A DNA stretch of 34,146 nt from Nitrincola sp. (GTDB taxonomy: Bacteria > Pseudomonadota > Gammaproteobacteria > Pseudomonadales > Balneatricaceae), in NCBI GenBank assembly GCA_007125745.1, contig SLCQ01000177.1:1-34146 (forward strand), written 5' to 3'. The notes beneath the pieces were generated by a model. That model was not told the origin of the DNA and searched no databases. It worked only from the letters and a program-made list of their open reading frames with translations. This document shows positions 22,880-33,972 of the stretch, piece by piece. Numbering within the stretch: position 1 is the stretch's first letter; every line of letters begins with the position of its first letter. A program made the translations under genes and the position numbers.

Positions 22880-25800
22880 ATGACGATTCGCGTTGCACTG
22901 AAGCACACCACTCGCTACGACTTTGACAAGCCGGTTGGCGTATCACCTCACTTAATTCGCTTAAGACCCGCTCCACATTGTCGAACGCCCATTGATGCAT
23001 ACTCACTCAAGGTGTCAGGGGGTGAATACTTTATCAATTGGCAACAGGATCCTTTTGGAAACCACTTGGCCAGGCTGGTGTTTCCGGAAAAGATCGATCA
23101 TTTAGAGGTGAGTGTAGAACTGCTTGCTCCAATGACAGTTATCAACCCTTTTGACTTCTTTGTTGAAGACTATGCTGAAAAGTTTCCTTTTAGCTACACA
23201 GATGGGCTGAAGAAAGAACTCGCACCCTATCTCGAAATTACCGAAAATGGCCCTTTACTCACCAAATGGCTTAAAGGCGTTACACAAAAACCTACGCCGA
23301 TTGTTGATTTTCTGGTTGCAATCAACCAGCGTCTTGAAGAGGATATTGAATACACCATCCGCATGGAACCTGGTGTCCAAACGGCCGAAGAAACACTCAC
23401 TAAACAGTTAGGTTCATGTCGAGATTCTGCTTGGCTAATGGTTCAAGTATTACGCCATCTGGGACTCGCGGCCCGTTTTGTATCCGGATATTTAATTCAG
23501 TTAACCGCCGACGTTAAAGCCCTAGATGGCCCATCAGGGACTGAAACCGACTTTACCGACTTGCATGCCTGGACAGAAGTGTTTATTCCAGGGGCTGGTT
23601 GGGTTGGCCTAGATCCAACATCAGGCTTGTTTGCCGGAGAAGGCCATATACCGCTTGCGGCAACCCCTGACCCATCCAGCGCGGCACCCATTACCGGAGC
23701 AACGGAACCATGTGAGGTCAGCTTTGACTTCAGTATGTCGGTCGCTCGTGTACATGAAGATCCACGGGTTACGAAACCCTATACAGAAGAGGCTTGGGAA
23801 GCGATCAATCAACTTGGCGAACAGGTTGATCAGGTGCTTGATGCTGAAGATCTACGACTCACCATGGGCGGTGAGCCCACCTTTGTGTCCATTGATGATA
23901 TGGACGCGGCAGAATGGACTATCGCCGCTCAAGGCCCCAACAAACGCCGTTTAGCAGAAGTTTTGATGCGACGTTTACGCCCACATTTTGCACCCAACAG
24001 CTTGATTCACTATCAACAGGGTAAGTGGTACCCAGGTGAATCCTTGCCACGTTGGGCGCTCGCTTGCTATTGGCGGAAAGATAACAAGCCCATGTGGCAA
24101 GAGAGTGAATGGCTGGCAGACATGTACAAGGACTATGGCTTCAACCAAAATGATGCCCGCATCTTTACCAAGCACCTGGTTCAGCGTCTGCGTATACACG
24201 ACAAACATATTATTCCTTGCTATGAAGATGCCTATTACTATTTATGGCTTGAACGAAAGCAACCCGTTGATATAGACCTAAGCAAAGAAGATCTCAAATC
24301 AGATGAAAACCGTCGTCGTTTGGCACAGCTTCTAGAGCGGGGCCTCGATGAAATCACAGGCTTTACACTACCACTGAGTCGAGATTTGAAATCAAAGCAC
24401 TGGCGATCAGGTCACTGGCAGGTGCGTCGCCGCCGACTCTATCTGATTCCCGGTGACTCACCCATGGGATATCGATTGCCATTAAATGAACTGCCTCTTG
24501 CAGGAAGAGAGGAGCTTCCTCAACCCGCATCTCTGTTTGAACTGAAACCACCGCTTCCCGATATGCATGGGGAAATTGCCAGCCGCTACAGCGCCTTACA
24601 GCAATCGTTCAACACGACCGCCATGAGTGATGACAAGCATCAGAATCTTCAGAAACAACAACTCGATGATTCAAGCGATAGCGTCCTACATACAGCATTA
24701 TGTGTTGAGCCGCGTGAAGGAAAACTCTTTGTCTTCCTCCCCCCGCTAGCAGAGCTTGAACACTATTTAGAGCTGTTAGTGCATATTGAAAACACGGCTA
24801 AGGCGCTACAGATGCCGGTCTGTTTAGAAGGCTATCCACCGCCCTCGGATACTCGAATTGAAAAATTTATGATCACGCCCGATCCCGGGGTGATTGAAGT
24901 GAACATCATGCCATCAAAAAGCTGGCAAGACTTGGTCAACACGACGACACGACTGTATGAAGAAGCACGACTGTCTCGTTTAGGGACAGAAAAGTTTATG
25001 CTTGATGGTCGTCATACAGGTACAGGCGGTGGTAATCATGTGACATTGGGTGGTGCTACGCCTGCTGATTCACCTTTTTTACGTCGCCCCAGCTTATTAA
25101 CCAGCATGATTACTTACTGGCAACATCACCCTAGCTTGTCTTTTTTATTCGCTGGCATGTTTCTAGGGCCTACCAGTCAAGCACCTCGAATTGATGAAGC
25201 CCGCCATGAAGCCTTGTATGAGTTGGAAATTGCGATTCAACAAATGCCTTTAGGCGAAGTACCGCAACCCTGGATGGTCGATCGTTTATTAAGAAACCTG
25301 TTGACCGATATTACTGGGAACACACACCGCGCTGAGTTTTGTATCGATAAACTTTTCTCACCTGACTCAGCCACAGGACGACTCGGGCTACTTGAGTTAC
25401 GAGGCTTTGAGATGCCTCCACATGCTCGAATGAGCTTGATGCAACAGCTGTTGATTCGCGCCCTTGTTGCGCGCTTTACCCGATCACCCTATCGCAAGAA
25501 ACTGGTACGTTGGGGTACACAACTGCATGACCGCTGGATGCTACCGCATTATTTGTGGAAGGACCTGCTGGATATACTTGATGATCTTCGTAGTTTTGGT
25601 TTTGACTTTAACCCTGAGTGGTTTGAACCTTTTCTCGAGTTCCGCTTCCCACAATATGGCGAGGTGATCTATGATCAGGTTCGCATTGAATTACGCCAGG
25701 CCATTGAGCCCTGGCATGTGTTAGGTGAGGAAGTGAGTGGCGGAGGAACGGCACGATACGTAGATTCTTCTGTTGAGCGCCTTCAGGTGAAACTCTTTGG

Positions 25801-26212
25801 CTACAACCCTGAGCGCCATGTTTTAACCTGTAATGGCAGGCGAGTACCTTTACAGCCGACAGGCGTCAACTCTGAAGCGGTCGCCGGTATTCGCTATCGT
25901 GCTTGGCAACCACCATCGGCACTTCACCCACTGATACCGGTTCATGCACCCTTAACGTTTGACCTGGTTGATACTTGGAATCAACGTTCATTAGGGGGGT
26001 GTACTTATCATGTTTCTCATCCAGCAGGACGGAATTACGAAACCTTCCCAGTCAATGCCAATGAAGCTGAAGCCAGGCGTTTATCGCGCTTCTGGGCTCA
26101 TGGTCATACACAAGGAAAACAATACATACCACCAGAGGACATTCCGGGCGAGTACCCTCATACGCTGGACTTACGATTTAACCACAGCAATCCTGGCGAG
26201 TCTGAGATATGA
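22880..26212 (+). CDS. transglutaminase-like protein fused to DUF2126
   Basis: This large fused protein has a bacterial transglutaminase N-terminal region (about residues 1-85, beginning MTIRVALKHTTRYDF). Next comes a papain-like transglutaminase core with Cys180 (QLGSCRDSAW), His229 (DLHAWTEVF) and Asp245 (GLDPTSG). From about residue 300 to the end is DUF2126 (LTMGGEPTFVSIDD; GTGGGNHVTLGGA; FLFAGMFLGPTSQAPR). The core fold cleaves or transfers amides; DUF2126 has been viewed by comparative genomics as a carboxylate-amine ligase-like unit, and its GGGNHVTLGG resembles the GSGMHVHLS loop of glutamine synthetase. Substrate unknown. 1,110 residues is normal for this fusion. AAGG lies nine bases before the ATG. 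It leads the right-arm operon. Confidence 0.93.
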   Translation: MTIRVALKHTTRYDFDKPVGVSPHLIRLRPAPHCRTPIDAYSLKVSGGEYFINWQQDPFGNHLARLVFPEKIDHLEVSVELLAPMTVINPFDFFVEDYAEKFPFSYTDGLKKELAPYLEITENGPLLTKWLKGVTQKPTPIVDFLVAINQRLEEDIEYTIRMEPGVQTAEETLTKQLGSCRDSAWLMVQVLRHLGLAARFVSGYLIQLTADVKALDGPSGTETDFTDLHAWTEVFIPGAGWVGLDPTSGLFAGEGHIPLAATPDPSSAAPITGATEPCEVSFDFSMSVARVHEDPRVTKPYTEEAWEAINQLGEQVDQVLDAEDLRLTMGGEPTFVSIDDMDAAEWTIAAQGPNKRRLAEVLMRRLRPHFAPNSLIHYQQGKWYPGESLPRWALACYWRKDNKPMWQESEWLADMYKDYGFNQNDARIFTKHLVQRLRIHDKHIIPCYEDAYYYLWLERKQPVDIDLSKEDLKSDENRRRLAQLLERGLDEITGFTLPLSRDLKSKHWRSGHWQVRRRRLYLIPGDSPMGYRLPLNELPLAGREELPQPASLFELKPPLPDMHGEIASRYSALQQSFNTTAMSDDKHQNLQKQQLDDSSDSVLHTALCVEPREGKLFVFLPPLAELEHYLELLVHIENTAKALQMPVCLEGYPPPSDTRIEKFMITPDPGVIEVNIMPSKSWQDLVNTTTRLYEEARLSRLGTEKFMLDGRHTGTGGGNHVTLGGATPADSPFLRRPSLLTSMITYWQHHPSLSFLFAGMFLGPTSQAPRIDEARHEALYELEIAIQQMPLGEVPQPWMVDRLLRNLLTDITGNTHRAEFCIDKLFSPDSATGRLGLLELRGFEMPPHARMSLMQQLLIRALVARFTRSPYRKKLVRWGTQLHDRWMLPHYLWKDLLDILDDLRSFGFDFNPEWFEPFLEFRFPQYGEVIYDQVRIELRQAIEPWHVLGEEVSGGGTARYVDSSVERLQVKLFGYNPERHVLTCNGRRVPLQPTGVNSEAVAGIRYRAWQPPSALHPLIPVHAPLTFDLVDTWNQRSLGGCTYHVSHPAGRNYETFPVNANEAEARRLSRFWAHGHTQGKQYIPPEDIPGEYPHTLDLRFNHSNPGESEI

Positions 26213-26243
26213 TATGGCGTTTTGATCATTGAACAAGGATAAA

Positions 26244-28853
26244 ATGACAGACTTTAGCCTGCTTAGCAGTGAAATGCAGCAACGACTGCTGGCCTATGTG
26301 ACCAGCAGACAGGCATTTGCTGACCCCTCGAATGGATTTGACGAGTTGTTAAGCACCTCTGGAAAGATTCGCTCTCAGTGGCAGCCTGTACTTGAAGAGC
26401 TAGCGAAACTAGACCGAGAAGCTTTACTAAACCGTTGCGAGGAAGCACAAAACCTGCTCCATGAAAATGGTGTCACCTTCAATACCTATGAAGACGACCC
26501 TGGCCAGCTAAGGTCATGGCAGTTGGACAGCTTACCCTACGTTATCAGTACTCAGGACTGGGAGTTTCTTGAAGGTGGACTAATGCAACGCTCTCGATTA
26601 CTGGAAGCGATTGTTGAAGATTTGCATGGTCCAAGATCATTGATAACTCAGGGATTGCTTCCGGCAGAGTTGATTCATAGTTTTCCCGGCTATCTTCTCC
26701 CGGCAGTCAGTGATCAACCCTTAAGAAGGCCCATGTTGATTTTTCATGGGACCGATGTCATACGCAACGCGATGGGAGAGTGGGAGGTACTTTGTGACTG
26801 GACACAGTCGCCCTCAGGAGCTGGCTATGCACTTGAAAACCGAATCACGCTCGCTAGAGCTTTTCCAAATCAATACCGTGAAGCGCCTCTAAAACGTTTA
26901 GCAGGGTTCTTACAAGCACAACACAGAGCGCTAGCATCTTTATGTACCAGCCAACGAGAGCAACCTAATATCGTATTGTTATCACCCGGGTCAGGTAGCC
27001 CAGGTTATTTTGAGCACGCATGGCTTGCCAATTATATGAATTTTTCACTAGTTGAAGGAGCAGACTTGGTCGTACGTGATGGCCAAGTGTCTATGCGAAC
27101 ACTAGGTGGACTCAGGCAAGTAGACGTGATTGTCAGGCACATCAATGATCCTTGGTGTGATCCATTAGAGCTTCGTGGAGACTCATTACTCGGTGTTCCA
27201 GGTTTAATGCAAGCGGCACGAGATGGTGAAGTCGAAATCGCTAATGCTCTGGGCACTGGCATCCTAGAAAACCCAGCTTTAGCGGCATTTTTAGATGAGA
27301 TATGTCAAACCTTGCTCGGCGAGTCGCTTTTAATTAAGCATCGCAAAACGCTATGGGGCGGTGATAGTGAACATCTCTCGCAAATACTCATGTCACCCAA
27401 TACCTGGCTGGTTCGAGATATTACCGAACCAGCCAAAGTGATAAAGCCCGAGGTATTAAACGATGGCGAGAGGCTCCAACTACTCGATAAATTACAATCC
27501 ACACCTTGGCGCTTTGTTGCTCAAGCCAAGTTAAGCGGTGCTACATCACCGATCTATAATAGACGCAAAGATATTTTCGAAGCCAATAACGTCAATTTAC
27601 GATTTTTTAGCTTGATTGAACCTGATCACCTGTTTATCACCCCTGCAGATCGCCGATACCGTATCATGCCTGGGGGGCTAGCCTGGGTTGGCGAGCCTGG
27701 CACCCTGTTAATGGAAAGCAGAACCGTTAAAGATATCTGGGTGATGGCACCTGTACCCCAGCCTCATATCAGCATGCTGAGCCAAGCCAGTGGTCCAATT
27801 GTTGTCACGCGAGACGGTACAGATCTCGCTTGCCGAGTCGCAGACAGTTTATTCTGGATGGGTCGATATGGTGAACGTTTAGATGTACGCTCTCGATTAC
27901 TTCGAGAAACGTTAGGGCGCTTCTTACAGGAAGATCAGTCTGCAGAAGAGAGTGGACTTCTACCCGATCTCTTTACAGCGCTTGAAATTCAACTACCTGA
28001 ATTAGCAATGGAAGAAGAGCGTCTATCCAATATTGAAGACCCCCAACGTCATCAGCAACTCTATCGCAGTTATCGCAATAGTCTACTGGAACTCTTTGAA
28101 GAAAATCACCCTGACGGCATGCCGTGGTTATTTAATCACTTTATCAGAAACTGCCGCTCGGTTCGTGATCATCTAGGTGATGATGCATGGCGTACCGTCA
28201 ACAATTTGCGCCAGCGCTTTAACGACATGCCCAGAACACAAGGCATCATCGTTGGACAACGCCAACTTGAAGGTGTCGTCACCGATCTGGCAGCCTTCTT
28301 TGGCCTATGTAACGAAACCATGCCACACCACTATGGCTGGCGCTTTTTAGATATTGGCCGCTTTATTGAGCGTGTTTTATATACACTGGAGTTGTTAAAG
28401 CTTGCGCTATTAAGTGCTCGACAACCTGGCATTGCGCTTTGTGAGGTCGTCTTAGCGACCACCGACAACTTTACCGTCTATCGTCGACGTTATCGTTCAC
28501 AGCTACACCCCAGCGCTATTCTTGACTTATTATTGTTCGATGAGACCAACCCCCGCTCTATTGGCTATATGTTAAAACGATTGGAAAGACAGATCCGGCG
28601 CTTGCCACAACCAAACCACTCGCCTTATCGTAACCTAGAGTCTAGACTGGTGATTCAGGCAACCAGTGCGTTGCACCTTGTGGATATCGATCGATTAAGC
28701 CAGATAGAGTCGAGTAAAGCATCACAAGTGGTGCTATCAACGCTTCTTGATCAGCTGATAGAGCCCTTATCTGAGTTGACCAATGCCATATCACATAGTC
28801 ACTTTAGTCATGTTGAAGCCCCTGTTCAACTGGTGACTATGCAATCATCATAA
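26244..28853 (+). CDS. fused circularly permuted ATP-grasp / alpha-E domain protein
   Basis: This protein combines in one chain what the left arm makes as two. Residues ~1-510 are a circularly permuted ATP-grasp ligase (VLCDWTQSPSGAGYALENR; VDVIVRHINDPWCDPLELRG; RIMPGGLAWVG). From about residue 527 onward is an alpha-E domain (CRVADSLFWMGRYGERLD; then WRFLDIGRFIERVLYTLELL). The ATP-grasp half lacks a clear copy of the VVKPANESGGYGML loop seen in the 485-residue paralogue, so its ligase activity may differ. The ATG at 26244 with AAGGAT just upstream is preferred over an in-frame TTG at 26229. It begins 31 bp after the transglutaminase-DUF2126 gene and ends 13 bp before the second transglutaminase. 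Confidence 0.92.
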   Translation: MTDFSLLSSEMQQRLLAYVTSRQAFADPSNGFDELLSTSGKIRSQWQPVLEELAKLDREALLNRCEEAQNLLHENGVTFNTYEDDPGQLRSWQLDSLPYVISTQDWEFLEGGLMQRSRLLEAIVEDLHGPRSLITQGLLPAELIHSFPGYLLPAVSDQPLRRPMLIFHGTDVIRNAMGEWEVLCDWTQSPSGAGYALENRITLARAFPNQYREAPLKRLAGFLQAQHRALASLCTSQREQPNIVLLSPGSGSPGYFEHAWLANYMNFSLVEGADLVVRDGQVSMRTLGGLRQVDVIVRHINDPWCDPLELRGDSLLGVPGLMQAARDGEVEIANALGTGILENPALAAFLDEICQTLLGESLLIKHRKTLWGGDSEHLSQILMSPNTWLVRDITEPAKVIKPEVLNDGERLQLLDKLQSTPWRFVAQAKLSGATSPIYNRRKDIFEANNVNLRFFSLIEPDHLFITPADRRYRIMPGGLAWVGEPGTLLMESRTVKDIWVMAPVPQPHISMLSQASGPIVVTRDGTDLACRVADSLFWMGRYGERLDVRSRLLRETLGRFLQEDQSAEESGLLPDLFTALEIQLPELAMEEERLSNIEDPQRHQQLYRSYRNSLLELFEENHPDGMPWLFNHFIRNCRSVRDHLGDDAWRTVNNLRQRFNDMPRTQGIIVGQRQLEGVVTDLAAFFGLCNETMPHHYGWRFLDIGRFIERVLYTLELLKLALLSARQPGIALCEVVLATTDNFTVYRRRYRSQLHPSAILDLLLFDETNPRSIGYMLKRLERQIRRLPQPNHSPYRNLESRLVIQATSALHLVDIDRLSQIESSKASQVVLSTLLDQLIEPLSELTNAISHSHFSHVEAPVQLVTMQSS

Positions 28854-28866
28854 TGACCATAACACT

Positions 28867-29772
28867 ATGAAATATCACCTTAAACATACTACTCGCTATG
28901 ACTACAGCAGTGATGTAACGCTCAGCCATAACGAGGCACGACTACTACCTCGCAGTCTACCTTGGCAACAAGTGAGCAGTGCTCAGCTGACGATTAACCC
29001 GCAACCGGTTCGTTTACGAGAACGCCTAGATTTTTTCGGAAATAGAGTCAGCTACTTCACCATTCAAGAGTTACATAGCTGTCTTGAAGTAACCTTAGAT
29101 TCTGAAATCACAACCTTGACACGACAAATGCCACCTCAGGGTATCAATATCAGCTGGAATGATGCTGTTGAACGGATGAAATCACAGCGTAGTTTCAATC
29201 CTCTTTTAGAGGATGCACGCTTAATGATGCTGGACTCTGACTTTGTTCAAAGCCACCCTTCATTAATGGAATATGCCAGCCAAGCATTTCAAAAAAATCG
29301 ACCCATTGTCGAAGCAATCCAAACCCTTAATCAGCAGATCTTTACCGATTTTACTTATGACCCTGAACACACAACCATTGCCACACCTGTACTGGATGTT
29401 CTCAATAGTCGGCGAGGAGTGTGCCAAGACTTTGCGCATTTAGCCATTGGTTGCCTTCGCTCAATCGGTCTTCCAGCCCGCTATGTCAGTGGCTATATGG
29501 AGACACTCCCACCTCCAGGACAGCCTAAACTACAAGGTGCAGATGCAACTCATGCATGGTTAGCCGTGGCAATTCCAGACTGGGGTTGGCTGGAAATAGA
29601 CCCTACAAATGGTACTTTGCCGGATGAGCGTTATTTAACCCTAGGCTGGGGGCGTGACTTTGCTGATGTTACCCCACTAAAAGGCGTGATGAATGGCGGT
29701 GGTAAAGACTCGCTTTCTGTTGCTGTCGACGTAACTCCTTTATCCGATAAACATATATTAGAGCTTTTTTAA
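28867..29772 (+). CDS. transglutaminase-like cysteine peptidase family protein
   Basis: This is a cytoplasmic papain-fold transglutaminase-like enzyme with the bacterial transglutaminase N-terminal region (MKYHLKHTTRYDYSSDV, about residues 1-90). The catalytic triad is complete: Cys186 (RRGVCQDFAHL), His229 (ADATHAWLAV) and Asp245 (EIDPTNG). RYVSGYMETL is typical. No signal peptide or membrane segment is seen, so action inside the cell on a peptide or amide product of the neighbouring ATP-grasp enzymes is inferred. Length is 301 residues. It lies 13 bp after the fused ATP-grasp gene and 6 bp before the EamA permease; its own Shine-Dalgarno is weak. Confidence 0.93.
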   Translation: MKYHLKHTTRYDYSSDVTLSHNEARLLPRSLPWQQVSSAQLTINPQPVRLRERLDFFGNRVSYFTIQELHSCLEVTLDSEITTLTRQMPPQGINISWNDAVERMKSQRSFNPLLEDARLMMLDSDFVQSHPSLMEYASQAFQKNRPIVEAIQTLNQQIFTDFTYDPEHTTIATPVLDVLNSRRGVCQDFAHLAIGCLRSIGLPARYVSGYMETLPPPGQPKLQGADATHAWLAVAIPDWGWLEIDPTNGTLPDERYLTLGWGRDFADVTPLKGVMNGGGKDSLSVAVDVTPLSDKHILELF

Positions 29773-30732: not shown

Positions 30733-32880
30733 CTACGCAGGCAAGTCTGTTTGATTATGTCTATTGAGTGAGCGCCAATGCTGGTTCTCATCCGATAAGA
30801 TCCGCGTCAACGTTGCATAGAGATCACGCAACTCTCGTGTGTGGCGCCAACTATTATGTGAACCAGTGTTTTGTTTTTTAACTAGAGTTCTCTGAAATTC
30901 GTTACAGGCTTCATTTAAAATAGTTAGTTCACCTGATACTTGACCCGCTAAGGATGACATACGCACTACCTCATTGTGATTCAAAATACCGTGGATCGCA
31001 GCACCCCAAGCAGGCAAGAATGCTGTAAAAATAAGTATCCAGGATATGTTCACAAAAAAGTGTAATGTCACCGCTATAAAGGTGATAAAAAACAGACTAA
31101 ATGACAAGCGGTGAAGATAGACATGATCTCTGTGTAAATTTTGATGACTGCGGGTAAAATATCGCCTGTGCTCATCGAGTACTTGTCGTAAATAGTCTGC
31201 CATCCCCATATTATGCTCAGTTAAACAGTAGCGCTTAGGGTTAGATCGACTCACCGGTAGACCTGAACTGATCAATACACGGTGCAATAACCAGTGCTCT
31301 GCACTAATAAGTTCACCGCCTCTTGCGTTAGATTTAGGCCCCCAAAAAGGCCGATTAAACGCCCGAGGAAGCACCAGCAAGGGAAAGCCTATGCGCAAAT
31401 AGCGCAACTGCTCCGCCAGATAGCGATAGCTCATCCAGTGACCATGCCAATCACGAAACCTTGCTTGCAATACGTGACTGACAATAAACCTGAGTAAAAT
31501 AAACTCCATCACCGCCCAAATCATCAATAAGCCAGGCATATTAGCCGGCCAAATTTTCAGTGCTCCTGCAACAGCACAAAAAACGGCAAAGGCAGCGGCA
31601 TAATAGATCATCCAGATCCCATCACGTTGCCGACGACCAAAGCAACTCGCTTGTGTCTCTGCCCAGTTAAAGATCTGTTCAAGATCAGGCTCATCTATAG
31701 GGTGCTTTTCCTCGTCAGCGGGCAATACCTGTTGATACCCCTTAGTCTGTCCAGGCAATCGCAACGAAGCTTTAAAGTCTTCATAATTTAAGCGTGCAAT
31801 GGAAGAACAAAACAGATGCAGGCGTCCGATTAATCTCTCTTTTACACTAAGAGCGTCCTGCCCTCGAGTCAACAACTCCAGCAAACGGCGAGCTTGCGAA
31901 GGGTTCGGAGGATTAAGCATCACTTTCAACCACAACTTAGCGCCAGACAACCACTGAAACAGATTAGGAGGCCGCTCCTTGACTGATGGTTGAAGGCAGT
32001 ATTGAATCCACAATATAACTAAGCCAAACAGGGACGCTTGTGAAGAGATACTCCTCAGGGTCTGATTTTCTATAGAGCCGTCTTGTGTTGCTGGTAAAAA
32101 AGGTAGCAGTAAAAGAGACATCCACTCTTGTAGTATCAGTTGACGTTGCTGAGTAGACGTAACTTCAGTGAAATACGCAAGAATTGACTCTGTATCCCGA
32201 CTTAAGGTTTCCAGCTCCAACAGTCGAGCATCAGTCAACCCCGATGGGCGATTAATCAGCAACTGAGGCTGATCCTTGGCTGGATCCAGCTTAACCAGCA
32301 AAATAGGTTTGCGCCGCATGAGCGCAGTCGAAATGATACGTGCCGTTCCGCTGGTGATGATAACGGGTTCCTGGGTGTCCCAAACTGCGATTAACAAATC
32401 AGAGAAGCTCAGCGCAATGTCATCGCGTAAAGAATAATCATCTTGGGTCAAAGGCTGATTCGTAATACTGGCTGACATACCCAATACCACTTTATGATCA
32501 GCTTCTTGTGGTCGTGGATGGCCGTCGCTTTCGTCAGCGGCCTCTGTTTGACGCACTTCTTGAGCGACCAATGTCGAGAGTTCATAGCCACTTTCGTGTG
32601 CAAGCTCTGCGGCCATTTGGTCAATACCTGTGGCTTCCCCCGTCACCAGCTTAAGCCGACTAGGTTCTGTAGCGTAAATATCATGAGCTTGCGAAAAAGC
32701 ATCATCTGCCGCCGTTTTAACATCGACTAGGAGTTGCTTGAGTATGACTCTCAAGTCATTTTCACGTACTTGAGAGTCTTTTAACCAGTGTCGGTGTAAG
32801 CGTTGCATTCGATGACCTGCGACCAACACACCAAAGTCTGGGCGCAAGCGAGGTCGTTGAAGCTGTTCTATAGAAGACAC
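30733..32880 (-). CDS. SLOG-like domain protein with C-terminal SLATT-like transmembrane hairpins
   Basis: The N-terminal ~200 residues look like a Rossmannoid SLOG (DprA/LOG-like) nucleotide-binding domain: GVLVAGHR at 17-24, LVTGEATGIDQMA at 78-90, SDLLIAVWDTQ at 160-170, then SGTARIISTALMRRKPILLVK region at 177-197. A linker of about 220 residues follows. The C-terminal third has two membrane hairpins (about 423-441 with 449-471, and 593-611 with 613-632). The first hairpin is followed by SYRYLAEQLRY (484-494), resembling the motif after SLATT hairpins. SLOG/SLATT proteins have been proposed as nucleotide-sensing, membrane-acting effectors; this assignment is my inference. Start is GTG without a clear Shine-Dalgarno, 9 bp after the upstream gene, suggesting coupling. 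715 residues. Confidence 0.7.
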   Translation of the reverse strand: MSSIEQLQRPRLRPDFGVLVAGHRMQRLHRHWLKDSQVRENDLRVILKQLLVDVKTAADDAFSQAHDIYATEPSRLKLVTGEATGIDQMAAELAHESGYELSTLVAQEVRQTEAADESDGHPRPQEADHKVVLGMSASITNQPLTQDDYSLRDDIALSFSDLLIAVWDTQEPVIITSGTARIISTALMRRKPILLVKLDPAKDQPQLLINRPSGLTDARLLELETLSRDTESILAYFTEVTSTQQRQLILQEWMSLLLLPFLPATQDGSIENQTLRSISSQASLFGLVILWIQYCLQPSVKERPPNLFQWLSGAKLWLKVMLNPPNPSQARRLLELLTRGQDALSVKERLIGRLHLFCSSIARLNYEDFKASLRLPGQTKGYQQVLPADEEKHPIDEPDLEQIFNWAETQASCFGRRQRDGIWMIYYAAAFAVFCAVAGALKIWPANMPGLLMIWAVMEFILLRFIVSHVLQARFRDWHGHWMSYRYLAEQLRYLRIGFPLLVLPRAFNRPFWGPKSNARGGELISAEHWLLHRVLISSGLPVSRSNPKRYCLTEHNMGMADYLRQVLDEHRRYFTRSHQNLHRDHVYLHRLSFSLFFITFIAVTLHFFVNISWILIFTAFLPAWGAAIHGILNHNEVVRMSSLAGQVSGELTILNEACNEFQRTLVKKQNTGSHNSWRHTRELRDLYATLTRILSDENQHWRSLNRHNQTDLPA

Positions 32881-32889
32881 TGAAATTGA

Positions 32890-33318
32890 CTATTTCATTA
32901 ACCGGGTAAAGAAATCCGGCATATCATAGCCAGCTGATTTAAGTTGATCCACTAATGACTCTGGCGCTTGTTGGTGCCGCTGACTTAAAGCCCAAAGCAT
33001 TCCACAACGTGCTCCAGAGCGACAAAAAGCCACGACTGGGGTGTCCGCTTTATTCAGTATCTCACCAAATTCATCGCCCTGTGCATCCTCTACCTGCCCA
33101 GAAATGACAGGCTGGTAATACCAGGTTAACCCCAAGCTTTCTGCGTAAGCTTGCAAGCTAGTGGAAGAGGGCTGTTCGGGTTCTTCAAAATCTGGGCGGT
33201 TGCAAATAAGTGTTTTAACACCTTCATCAGCCAAGGCTTTTATATCATCCTTCGATAATTGAGCACAGGCGCTTAAGCGATCAGTCAGTTTACGCATGGC
33301 AGGTAGTTGTTGTGGCAT
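32890..33318 (-). CDS. TIGR01244/BLH-type phosphatase-like (sulfur transferase family) protein
   Basis: This small cytoplasmic protein has the dual-specificity-phosphatase-like fold of the TIGR01244 (DUF442, beta-lactamase-hydrolase-like) family. The family name mentions sulfur transfer, but the reaction of stand-alone members is not established. The active-site-like loop is CRSGAR, with Cys99 and Arg104 (a C-x4-R, one residue shorter than the tyrosine-phosphatase C-x5-R). KTLICNRPDFEEPEQP is the family N-terminal signature. Length is 142 residues. ATG with GAGGAG at a normal distance upstream. It sits directly before the SLOG-like gene (9 bp) and 45 bp after the PqiC-like gene on the same strand. 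Confidence 0.85.
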   Translation of the reverse strand: MPQQLPAMRKLTDRLSACAQLSKDDIKALADEGVKTLICNRPDFEEPEQPSSTSLQAYAESLGLTWYYQPVISGQVEDAQGDEFGEILNKADTPVVAFCRSGARCGMLWALSQRHQQAPESLVDQLKSAGYDMPDFFTRLMK

Positions 33319-33363
33319 AGAACTCTCCTCAATAATCCGTGAGCGATCAATATTTCTTATAAG

Positions 33364-33972
33364 CTAAAGATAATGTAGTAATCGTTCACTTAAATCAACC
33401 AGCCATTTGTTGAGATAAGACTGACTGGCAGATGCTAAACCCTGTGCAGTCACCTCTGGCAACGCTTCTGATTGTTGCCACTGCCATGAAACAATGGGTT
33501 GGCCATTAGCCTTAATCAAATCGGCACTGATACCCACCAATAATCGCTGGGAGGTTTGATCTAAGTGCCACTGATGCAGATGAATTCGTAAACGATAGTC
33601 AGACAGTATGCCCGGTTGATCCATTAATACATTAACACCCTGCAAATGTGTACCTAAATACTCTGTCGCCAGTCTCTCCATCTGCAAAGGTAATGGCTCT
33701 GTCCAAATATGATCTCTAAAAGGGGTCAGCTGATGCGCACCTGTTTGATACCAAAGTGCACGACTATTTAAAGCAGTTGTAGCCAAGGGAGTCTCAACAA
33801 TCAGGGTACCCCGCTCTGCAGTCCAAACCGTTTCATTTAAGCTATCTTCTGTAATCGTTGAGATCAACTGTAACTGGTTTGGTGCGGGGCCTGCTTGGGG
33901 TAGTAGATTACAGCCAGCGAGTCCAAGCCCGACGACTAGCCCAACACATAGCTTTACAATTTTTATGCTCAT
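33364..33972 (-). CDS. PqiC-like ABC-transport auxiliary lipoprotein
   Basis: This predicted lipoprotein belongs to the PqiC/DUF330 family, accessory components of MCE-type (Mla/Pqi) lipid transport systems that act at the outer membrane. The signal peptide ends in the lipobox LAGC, with Cys21 lipidated; the residues after it (NLLPQAG) contain no Asp at +2, consistent with outer-membrane sorting. Family-like segments are WTAERGTLIVETPLAT, ALWYQTGAHQLTPF and VSWQWQQSEALP. Length is 202 residues. It starts 3 bp after the MCE-protein stop, so the two form an operon and probably a complex. Confidence 0.87.
   Translation of the reverse strand: MSIKIVKLCVGLVVGLGLAGCNLLPQAGPAPNQLQLISTITEDSLNETVWTAERGTLIVETPLATTALNSRALWYQTGAHQLTPFRDHIWTEPLPLQMERLATEYLGTHLQGVNVLMDQPGILSDYRLRIHLHQWHLDQTSQRLLVGISADLIKANGQPIVSWQWQQSEALPEVTAQGLASASQSYLNKWLVDLSERLLHYL

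Follow-up and report, generated by a model that had tools for sequence, protein, structure and literature searches.

Does a protein assembled from the modules of bacterial conflict systems still serve conflict when its gene stands by itself among ordinary genes? This question is raised by one open reading frame in a stretch of 34,146 nucleotides of Nitrincola sp. DNA (the whole of which is called the window below). What is known of SLOG and SLATT modules comes mostly from predicted conflict systems; the founding paper is reportedly Burroughs et al. 2015. The SLOG–SLATT gene occupies positions 30733–32880 of the minus strand, begins with GTG and encodes 715 residues, exactly the frame that a preliminary description made from the sequence had delimited. 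All the motifs quoted there (VLVAGHR, TGEATGIDQMA, SDLLIAVWD, SGTARII, KPILLVK and SYRYLAEQLRY) were found in the translation. The gene and the predicted parts of its product are as follows.

30733..32880, minus strand: SLOG–helical insert–SLATT–SLATT protein, 715 aa (open reading frame, homologues, AlphaFold2 model)
32251..32841, minus strand: predicted SLOG-type Rossmannoid sensor domain, residues ~14–210 (AlphaFold2 model, Foldseek matches to DprA/ShosA/YspA-SLOG, kept motifs); within it, the motifs GHR 22–24, A83/G85/D87, AVWD 165–168 and SGT 177–179
31696..32232, minus strand: predicted helical insert, residues ~217–395 (alignment gap, hhalign, model helices)
31378..31680, minus strand: first predicted SLATT/DUF4231-type 2TM unit, residues ~401–501 (Pfam DUF4231 at 424–499, model, hydropathy)
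30877..31224, minus strand: second predicted SLATT_1-type 2TM unit, residues ~553–668 (Pfam SLATT_1 at 563–661, NCBIfam SLATT, model)
30733..30876, minus strand: C-terminal helix and conserved tail ENQxWRSL..HNxxDLP, residues 669–715 plus stop codon (homologue alignment, model)

Predicted architecture and selection

An AlphaFold2 model of the 715-residue protein, built with 23 aligned sequences, has a mean pLDDT of 86.4 and a pTM of 0.87. Its N-terminal domain is predicted to contain strands at residues 15–22, 75–80, 100–105, 129–132, 162–167 and 193–197 with helices between them, a three-layer Rossmannoid fold of SLOG topology. Foldseek matched this domain to the DprA-like protein ShosA and to DprA (probability 0.94–0.99) and to phage DprA-like and YspA/cpYpsA-SLOG proteins (probability 0.99–1.0). 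The pocket motifs of SLOG domains, i.e., a GxHR-type loop after strand 1, AxGxD, AxWD and (G/S)GT, are present and are matched in most distant relatives. Pocket residues R24, G85, A165, W167, D168 and G178 are kept in 21 of the 21 rows of the family alignment, and G22, H23 and D87 in 20 of them.

In the membrane half, the model predicts helices at residues 401–440, 454–476 and 478–501 for the first 2TM unit and at 553–610, 615–636 and 638–668 for the second, while hydropathy places transmembrane segments at ~422–440, 450–468, 592–610 and 615–633. Each unit is thus predicted to be a 2TM hairpin with helices on both sides, as in SLATT/DUF4231 domains, and paired segments recur among members of the family and in most of its distant relatives. 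A conserved WHxxWxxYRxxAEQLR helix comes after TM2 of the first unit, the last TM of the second contains PAWGAAIHG, and residues E459, H607 and H630, located in or near the TM helices, do not vary within the family.

Profile matches of the window protein alone are weak. For the SLOG part, the YAcAr-SLOG and DprA models of Pfam gave E = 0.18, with scores under the curated cut-offs (12.1 bits vs. 28.2 and 11.4 vs. 29.6, respectively). For the membrane part, DUF4231 matched residues 424–499 with E = 0.0021, SLATT_1 residues 563–661 with E = 0.0016, and NCBIfam SLATT matched with E = 5.8e-7, again below the curated cut-offs (18.9 vs. 24.7, 18.9 vs. 26.3 and 29.5 vs. 41). Among the 23 homologues, 17 match DUF4231 and 11 match SLATT_1 at E <= 0.01. 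A PDB sequence search returned no match with the single protein, and a profile gave weak SLOG-like matches alone. TRPM2, alpha-pore toxins and ABC transporters also appeared among Foldseek matches and were dropped (E > 0.2, low probability). The SLOG/SLATT assignment is based on the agreement of predicted fold, motifs, family-wide matches and profile–profile homology. Taken together, the model and these comparisons show one chain that combines a predicted SLOG domain with a helical insert and, in tandem, two 2TM hairpins of SLATT type. The structure prediction and Foldseek comparison proposed in the preliminary description therefore bear out its Rossmannoid SLOG N-terminus (~14–210), with GHR, AxGxD and AVWD motifs common to relatives, and its two membrane hairpins, and extend the SLATT resemblance to both of them (401–501 and 553–668) through Pfam and NCBIfam profiles, homologue matches and Foldseek.

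Full-length homologues at 38–74% identity were found in Nitrincola and other gammaproteobacteria. For the whole gene, dN/dS (NG86, five close pairs with finite overall dS) was 0.06, 0.10, 0.15, 0.07 and 0.27. In the same pairs the membrane half, at 0.02–0.16, is the most constrained part, and the SLOG half, at 0.09–0.35, evolves ca. 2–10 times faster. In two close pairs, where the gene has values of 0.06–0.10, the adjoining genes have 0.02–0.09, so that it is nearly, but not quite, as constrained as the core genes around it. Judged by these comparisons, the reading frame is a real, conserved coding gene under purifying selection and no chance frame.

The catalytic signature of LOG enzymes is PGGxGTxxE. 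It is absent in the window protein, where the corresponding loop reads SGTARII and no conserved Glu is found downstream, which favours a non-catalytic SLOG sensor. One may nevertheless suppose that the SLOG domain is an enzyme, i.e., a nucleotide/nucleoside N-glycosidase or an NAD hydrolase, and that the SLATT hairpins merely anchor it in the membrane. Some SLOG/LOG domains are enzymes (PMC9503650), and the GHR, AxGxD and AVWD motifs are kept in the family. We regard this reading as very improbable, given the missing signature, with an SGTA loop in its place, and the stronger constraint on the membrane half than on the SLOG half, which makes a mere anchor unlikely.

A wider family and its partner genes

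Relatives of the same architecture are encoded elsewhere. A distant profile made from three proteins, two from Chlorobiaceae and one from a Caballeronia plasmid, was compared by hhalign with the window family; the two match over most of their length (probability 99.7, E = 4.9e-26). The same profile matches all three domains of the window protein in its own genome (E = 2e-6, 1.6e-5 and 7e-4) and also matches 16 other Pseudomonadota genomes of 399. A model of a Chlorobiaceae protein (pLDDT 75.6) has its elements in the order of the window protein but lacks the helical insert, which is mostly missing from these shorter TIR-linked relatives. A search of plasmids with the window protein retrieved one distant relative, and a search of phages retrieved no homologue.

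Neighbouring genes were counted at 20 distant loci: 13 from the profile scan that have the paired-TM pattern, three from Chlorobiaceae, two from Caballeronia, one from Novosphingobium, and G378. Two further candidates, L086 and L087, match in the SLOG part only and have no 4-TM pattern; they were rejected as family members and excluded from the counts, although L087 has a TIR neighbour. A TIR, RyR or CHAT gene lies no more than two genes away at 12 of the 20 loci (TIR_2 at eight, RyR at three and CHAT at one). One of the eight TIR_2 domains is fused to SIR2, and three of these loci have an nSTAND1 gene, confirmed or homologous. Weaker or other partners are a TIR below the cut-off (L073), a WD40 protein (L082) and a DUF4062 protein (L084); none was recognised among the genes scanned at five of the 20 loci. 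With TIR, RyR or CHAT genes at most of its distant loci, the wider family would seem to consist of conflict effectors. Within it, profile homology and gene context place the window's protein as a stand-alone branch.

Several distant loci have arrangements of their own. At L046:4133-7772 the SLOG–SLATT–SLATT gene is followed by one for a SIR2_2–TIR_2 fusion protein, and at L045:5359-8867, on a Novosphingobium plasmid, it is overlapped by a CHAT protease gene by 4 bp. A protein with TrkA_N and RyR domains is encoded next to it at L075:3893-6031, which puts a regulator domain of the potassium-transport type beside a predicted nucleotide-gated membrane effector. In two related genomes (L074:5033-8742 and L076:2551-6221) a patatin-like phospholipase and an RyR protein are encoded directly before the gene, a possible three-gene conflict system.

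Gene context and carriers of the stand-alone branch

In most Nitrincola genomes the SLOG–SLATT gene lies behind a MlaE–ABC–MlaD–auxiliary lipoprotein operon and a TIGR01244 sulfurtransferase gene (e.g., L015:6106-9975). Positions 32890–33972 of the window show the end of this order.

32890..33318, minus strand: TIGR01244-type sulfurtransferase/BLH phosphatase-like gene (profile matches; same order in L015, L017 and L018)
33364..33972, minus strand: gene for an ABC transport auxiliary lipoprotein, PqiC-like (profile matches; last gene of a Mla/MCE-type operon in relatives)

The sulfurtransferase gene ends 9 bp ahead of the SLOG–SLATT gene, which makes co-transcription of the two possible in the window. 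As functional context, the linkage was rejected: a permease gene intervenes in N. tapanii and N. alkalisediminis, and the order is missing in N. alkalilacustris and was not seen outside Nitrincola. A GGDEF gene adjoins the SLOG–SLATT gene on the opposite strand in N. alkalilacustris, the sole case observed. Elsewhere in the window, at 22880–29772 of the plus strand, lies a predicted peptide-ligase type operon of three genes, encoding a transglutaminase plus DUF2126 putative amidoligase (1110 aa), a circularly permuted ATP-grasp plus Alpha-E protein (874 aa) and a second transglutaminase (301 aa).

No partner of the TIR, RyR or CHAT type was found beside any member of the window branch examined. 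Its neighbours are core or metabolic genes (MetK, photolyase, MetE, pseudouridine synthase, a BCCT transporter, an MCP, RNase G with Maf, EF-P, a class II tRNA synthetase-like protein and permeases) and, mainly in Thioalkalivibrio, some genes with no Pfam match. Genome-wide searches for TIR, which used PF13676 alone, found no TIR_2 in the window's genome (completeness 84.85%), in 10 of the 11 Nitrincola genomes or in 12 of the 15 carriers searched across genera. The sole TIR_2 genes in Nitrincola were found in N. tibetensis (G008:C6:3004-3951), whose SLOG–SLATT gene is on another contig. SIR2_2 is absent from the window's genome, SMODS from all 11 Nitrincola genomes, the window's own included, and PADLOC gave no match. 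Neither a linked or genome-encoded TIR producer, as in Thoeris and other TIR-coupled systems, was found in the window's genome by the PF13676 search, nor a nearby SMODS nucleotidyltransferase, as in CBASS, in the genus. The earlier remark that no cyclase gene is adjacent thus holds, and the accompanying suggestion of a housekeeping or stress variant fits the core-gene neighbours, the lack of TIR_2 and SIR2_2 in the window's genome and the distribution described below.

Ten of the 11 Nitrincola genomes, including the window's own, carry the gene, and most share synteny around it. The only non-carrier (G010) is the marine N. iocasae, described from a marine cold seep; other cited Nitrincola with given sources come from saline-alkaline lakes and pans (PMC12394749). 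Culturable carriers include N. lacisaponensis, N. schmidtii and N. alkalilacustris. In the Marinospirillum group three of eight genomes carry the gene: M. celere and M. alkaliphilum, both named for or known as alkaliphiles, and a soda-lake MAG named CSBr16, a name series that stands for Cock Soda Lake (PMC6704655). The gene is also present in Natronospirillum operosum, a species described as a haloalkaliphile, in two Thioalkalivibrio and in MAGs whose names point, for some of them by inference, to the Cariboo soda lakes and the photobioreactor consortium of these lakes. Every carrier of traceable origin is haloalkaline; origins were traced for all but L011/G040, L020, L024 and L034. The L034 homologue (L034:10001-12111, G007:C135), from a low-coverage MAG, has several stops in the matched stretches, which may reflect sequencing error or a pseudogene. 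Two of the 30 genomes of the Thioalkalivibrio group carry the gene, which is therefore no requirement for haloalkaliphily. The copies of Thioalkalivibrio and of a Halothiobacillaceae MAG form one clade, a grouping consistent with transfer between lineages, as is seen for defence genes.

Defence genes are usually patchy in distribution and located in islands. One can therefore ask whether the protein is still an abortive-infection effector of phage defence, whose SLOG domain would sense a signal made in trans during infection by an unlinked or unrecognised NAD-processing enzyme, and whose SLATT pair would kill the cell. The TIR, SIR2-TIR, nSTAND1, RyR and CHAT genes that adjoin its architectural relatives speak for this, as do the patchy presence in the Thioalkalivibrio group, the grouping of copies across lineages and the faster evolution of the sensor half. 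The near-universal and mostly syntenic presence in Nitrincola, core-gene neighbourhoods in every genus examined, the lack of a PADLOC match and the absence of TIR_2 (PF13676) from most carriers speak against it, and we consider it rather unlikely.

The habitats raise another alternative, that the protein is a constitutive channel or transporter of ions and serves alkaline or sodium homeostasis. The SLOG domain would then be a metabolic gate responding to the cell's own level of NAD or ADPR, with no immune-type signal. The attraction of this reading is the haloalkaline origin of every traceable carrier, with the marine Nitrincola lacking the gene and the Marinospirillum group having it in two alkaliphiles and a soda-lake MAG, together with the invariant E459, H607 and H630. 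However, the gene is present in few Thioalkalivibrio-group genomes, exchange of genes between neighbours may account for the restriction to such habitats, and E459 also occurs in several TIR-linked relatives, so this residue is no haloalkaline adaptation. We consider such a channel improbable.

The explanation that we favour, and hold to be somewhat more probable than its negation, is that the protein is a SLOG-gated four-TM membrane-permeability effector, a branch of which became a resident chromosomal gene in haloalkaliphiles. The SLOG pocket would bind a nucleotide, most likely one derived from ADP-ribose or NAD. The signal, which in the window branch would not be made by a linked TIR, would reach the four TM helices by way of the helical insert, probably within a homo-oligomer, and these helices would open or assemble a structure that permeabilises the membrane or conducts ions. 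The ligand, the pore and the physiological role are all inferred. A resident role is favoured by the core-gene setting without partners and by the presence of the gene in nearly all Nitrincola genomes. As a resident chromosomal gene of haloalkaliphilic gammaproteobacteria, it would probably act in the control of membrane or ion stress rather than in a mobile defence island. Several findings count against our reading: the faster-evolving SLOG half could also suit an arms-race sensor, the Thioalkalivibrio and Halothiobacillaceae copies group across lineages, two of 30 Thioalkalivibrio-group genomes are carriers, and the domain scores are below cut-off.

Since the branch stands alone among ordinary genes and occurs almost solely in bacteria from alkaline salt lakes, the protein may be an immune-type module that has been retained for another job. 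More tentatively, an immune-type nucleotide-gated effector may have been domesticated into a nucleotide-gated channel for membrane, sodium or pH stress in soda-lake bacteria, its trigger coming from cell metabolism instead of an infection sensor. The habitat pattern bears on whether an immune-type effector was co-opted by organisms living at high pH and salt. Since a single-chain sensor with two SLATT units is conserved, outside any mobile or immune context, in culturable isolates, gating of SLATT by SLOG can be tested directly.

Comparison with known systems

TRPM-type channels have a SLOG/LSDAT-like N-terminus plus a pore. They resemble the window protein as a works-like analogy only, in that a membrane channel carries a SLOG-like nucleotide-binding N-terminus; Foldseek matched TRPM2 without significance (E 0.31, probability 0.11), and the membrane part has no shown homology.

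The closest counterparts are the TIR-linked SLOG–DUF4231 proteins of Caballeronia plasmids (pSBC2-4 and Lep1P3 p1) and Chlorobiaceae (L036–L038), which, where annotated, are named just "DUF4231 domain-containing protein". They share with the window family an N-terminal SLOG, two 2TM hairpins (hhalign probability 99.7) and the motifs GHR, AxGxD, AVWD, R..AEQLR and a C-terminal W. In contrast to the window family, they adjoin TIR and often nSTAND1 genes and have a GGT loop in place of SGT; the Chlorobiaceae versions are ca. 125–155 residues shorter than the window protein and have no helical insert.

In Thoeris, the SLOG domains of ThsA bind cADPR isomers made by TIR proteins, so that in ThsA (SIR2-SLOG), too, a SLOG domain is the sensor of a TIR-made nucleotide, while ThsA TM-macro couples a nucleotide sensor to TM helices (PMC11204291). 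Unlike ThsA, the window protein would have a 4-TM SLATT pair as effector instead of SIR2, and no TIR_2 partner was found in its genome; unlike ThsA TM-macro, its sensor is SLOG instead of macro.

SLATT domains are predicted membrane effectors responsive to nucleotide signals or ADPr derivatives, pore formation by them is still a prediction in the literature, and SLATT_1/DUF4231 effectors have the same 2TM hairpin between helices (PMC7159879, PMC9503650). Typical models have one 2TM domain and a signal that comes from a separate gene, whereas the window protein combines two units and the sensor on one chain. This combination of tandem SLATT and SLOG, without the usual linked signal producer and in mostly haloalkaline hosts, is what appears to be new here.
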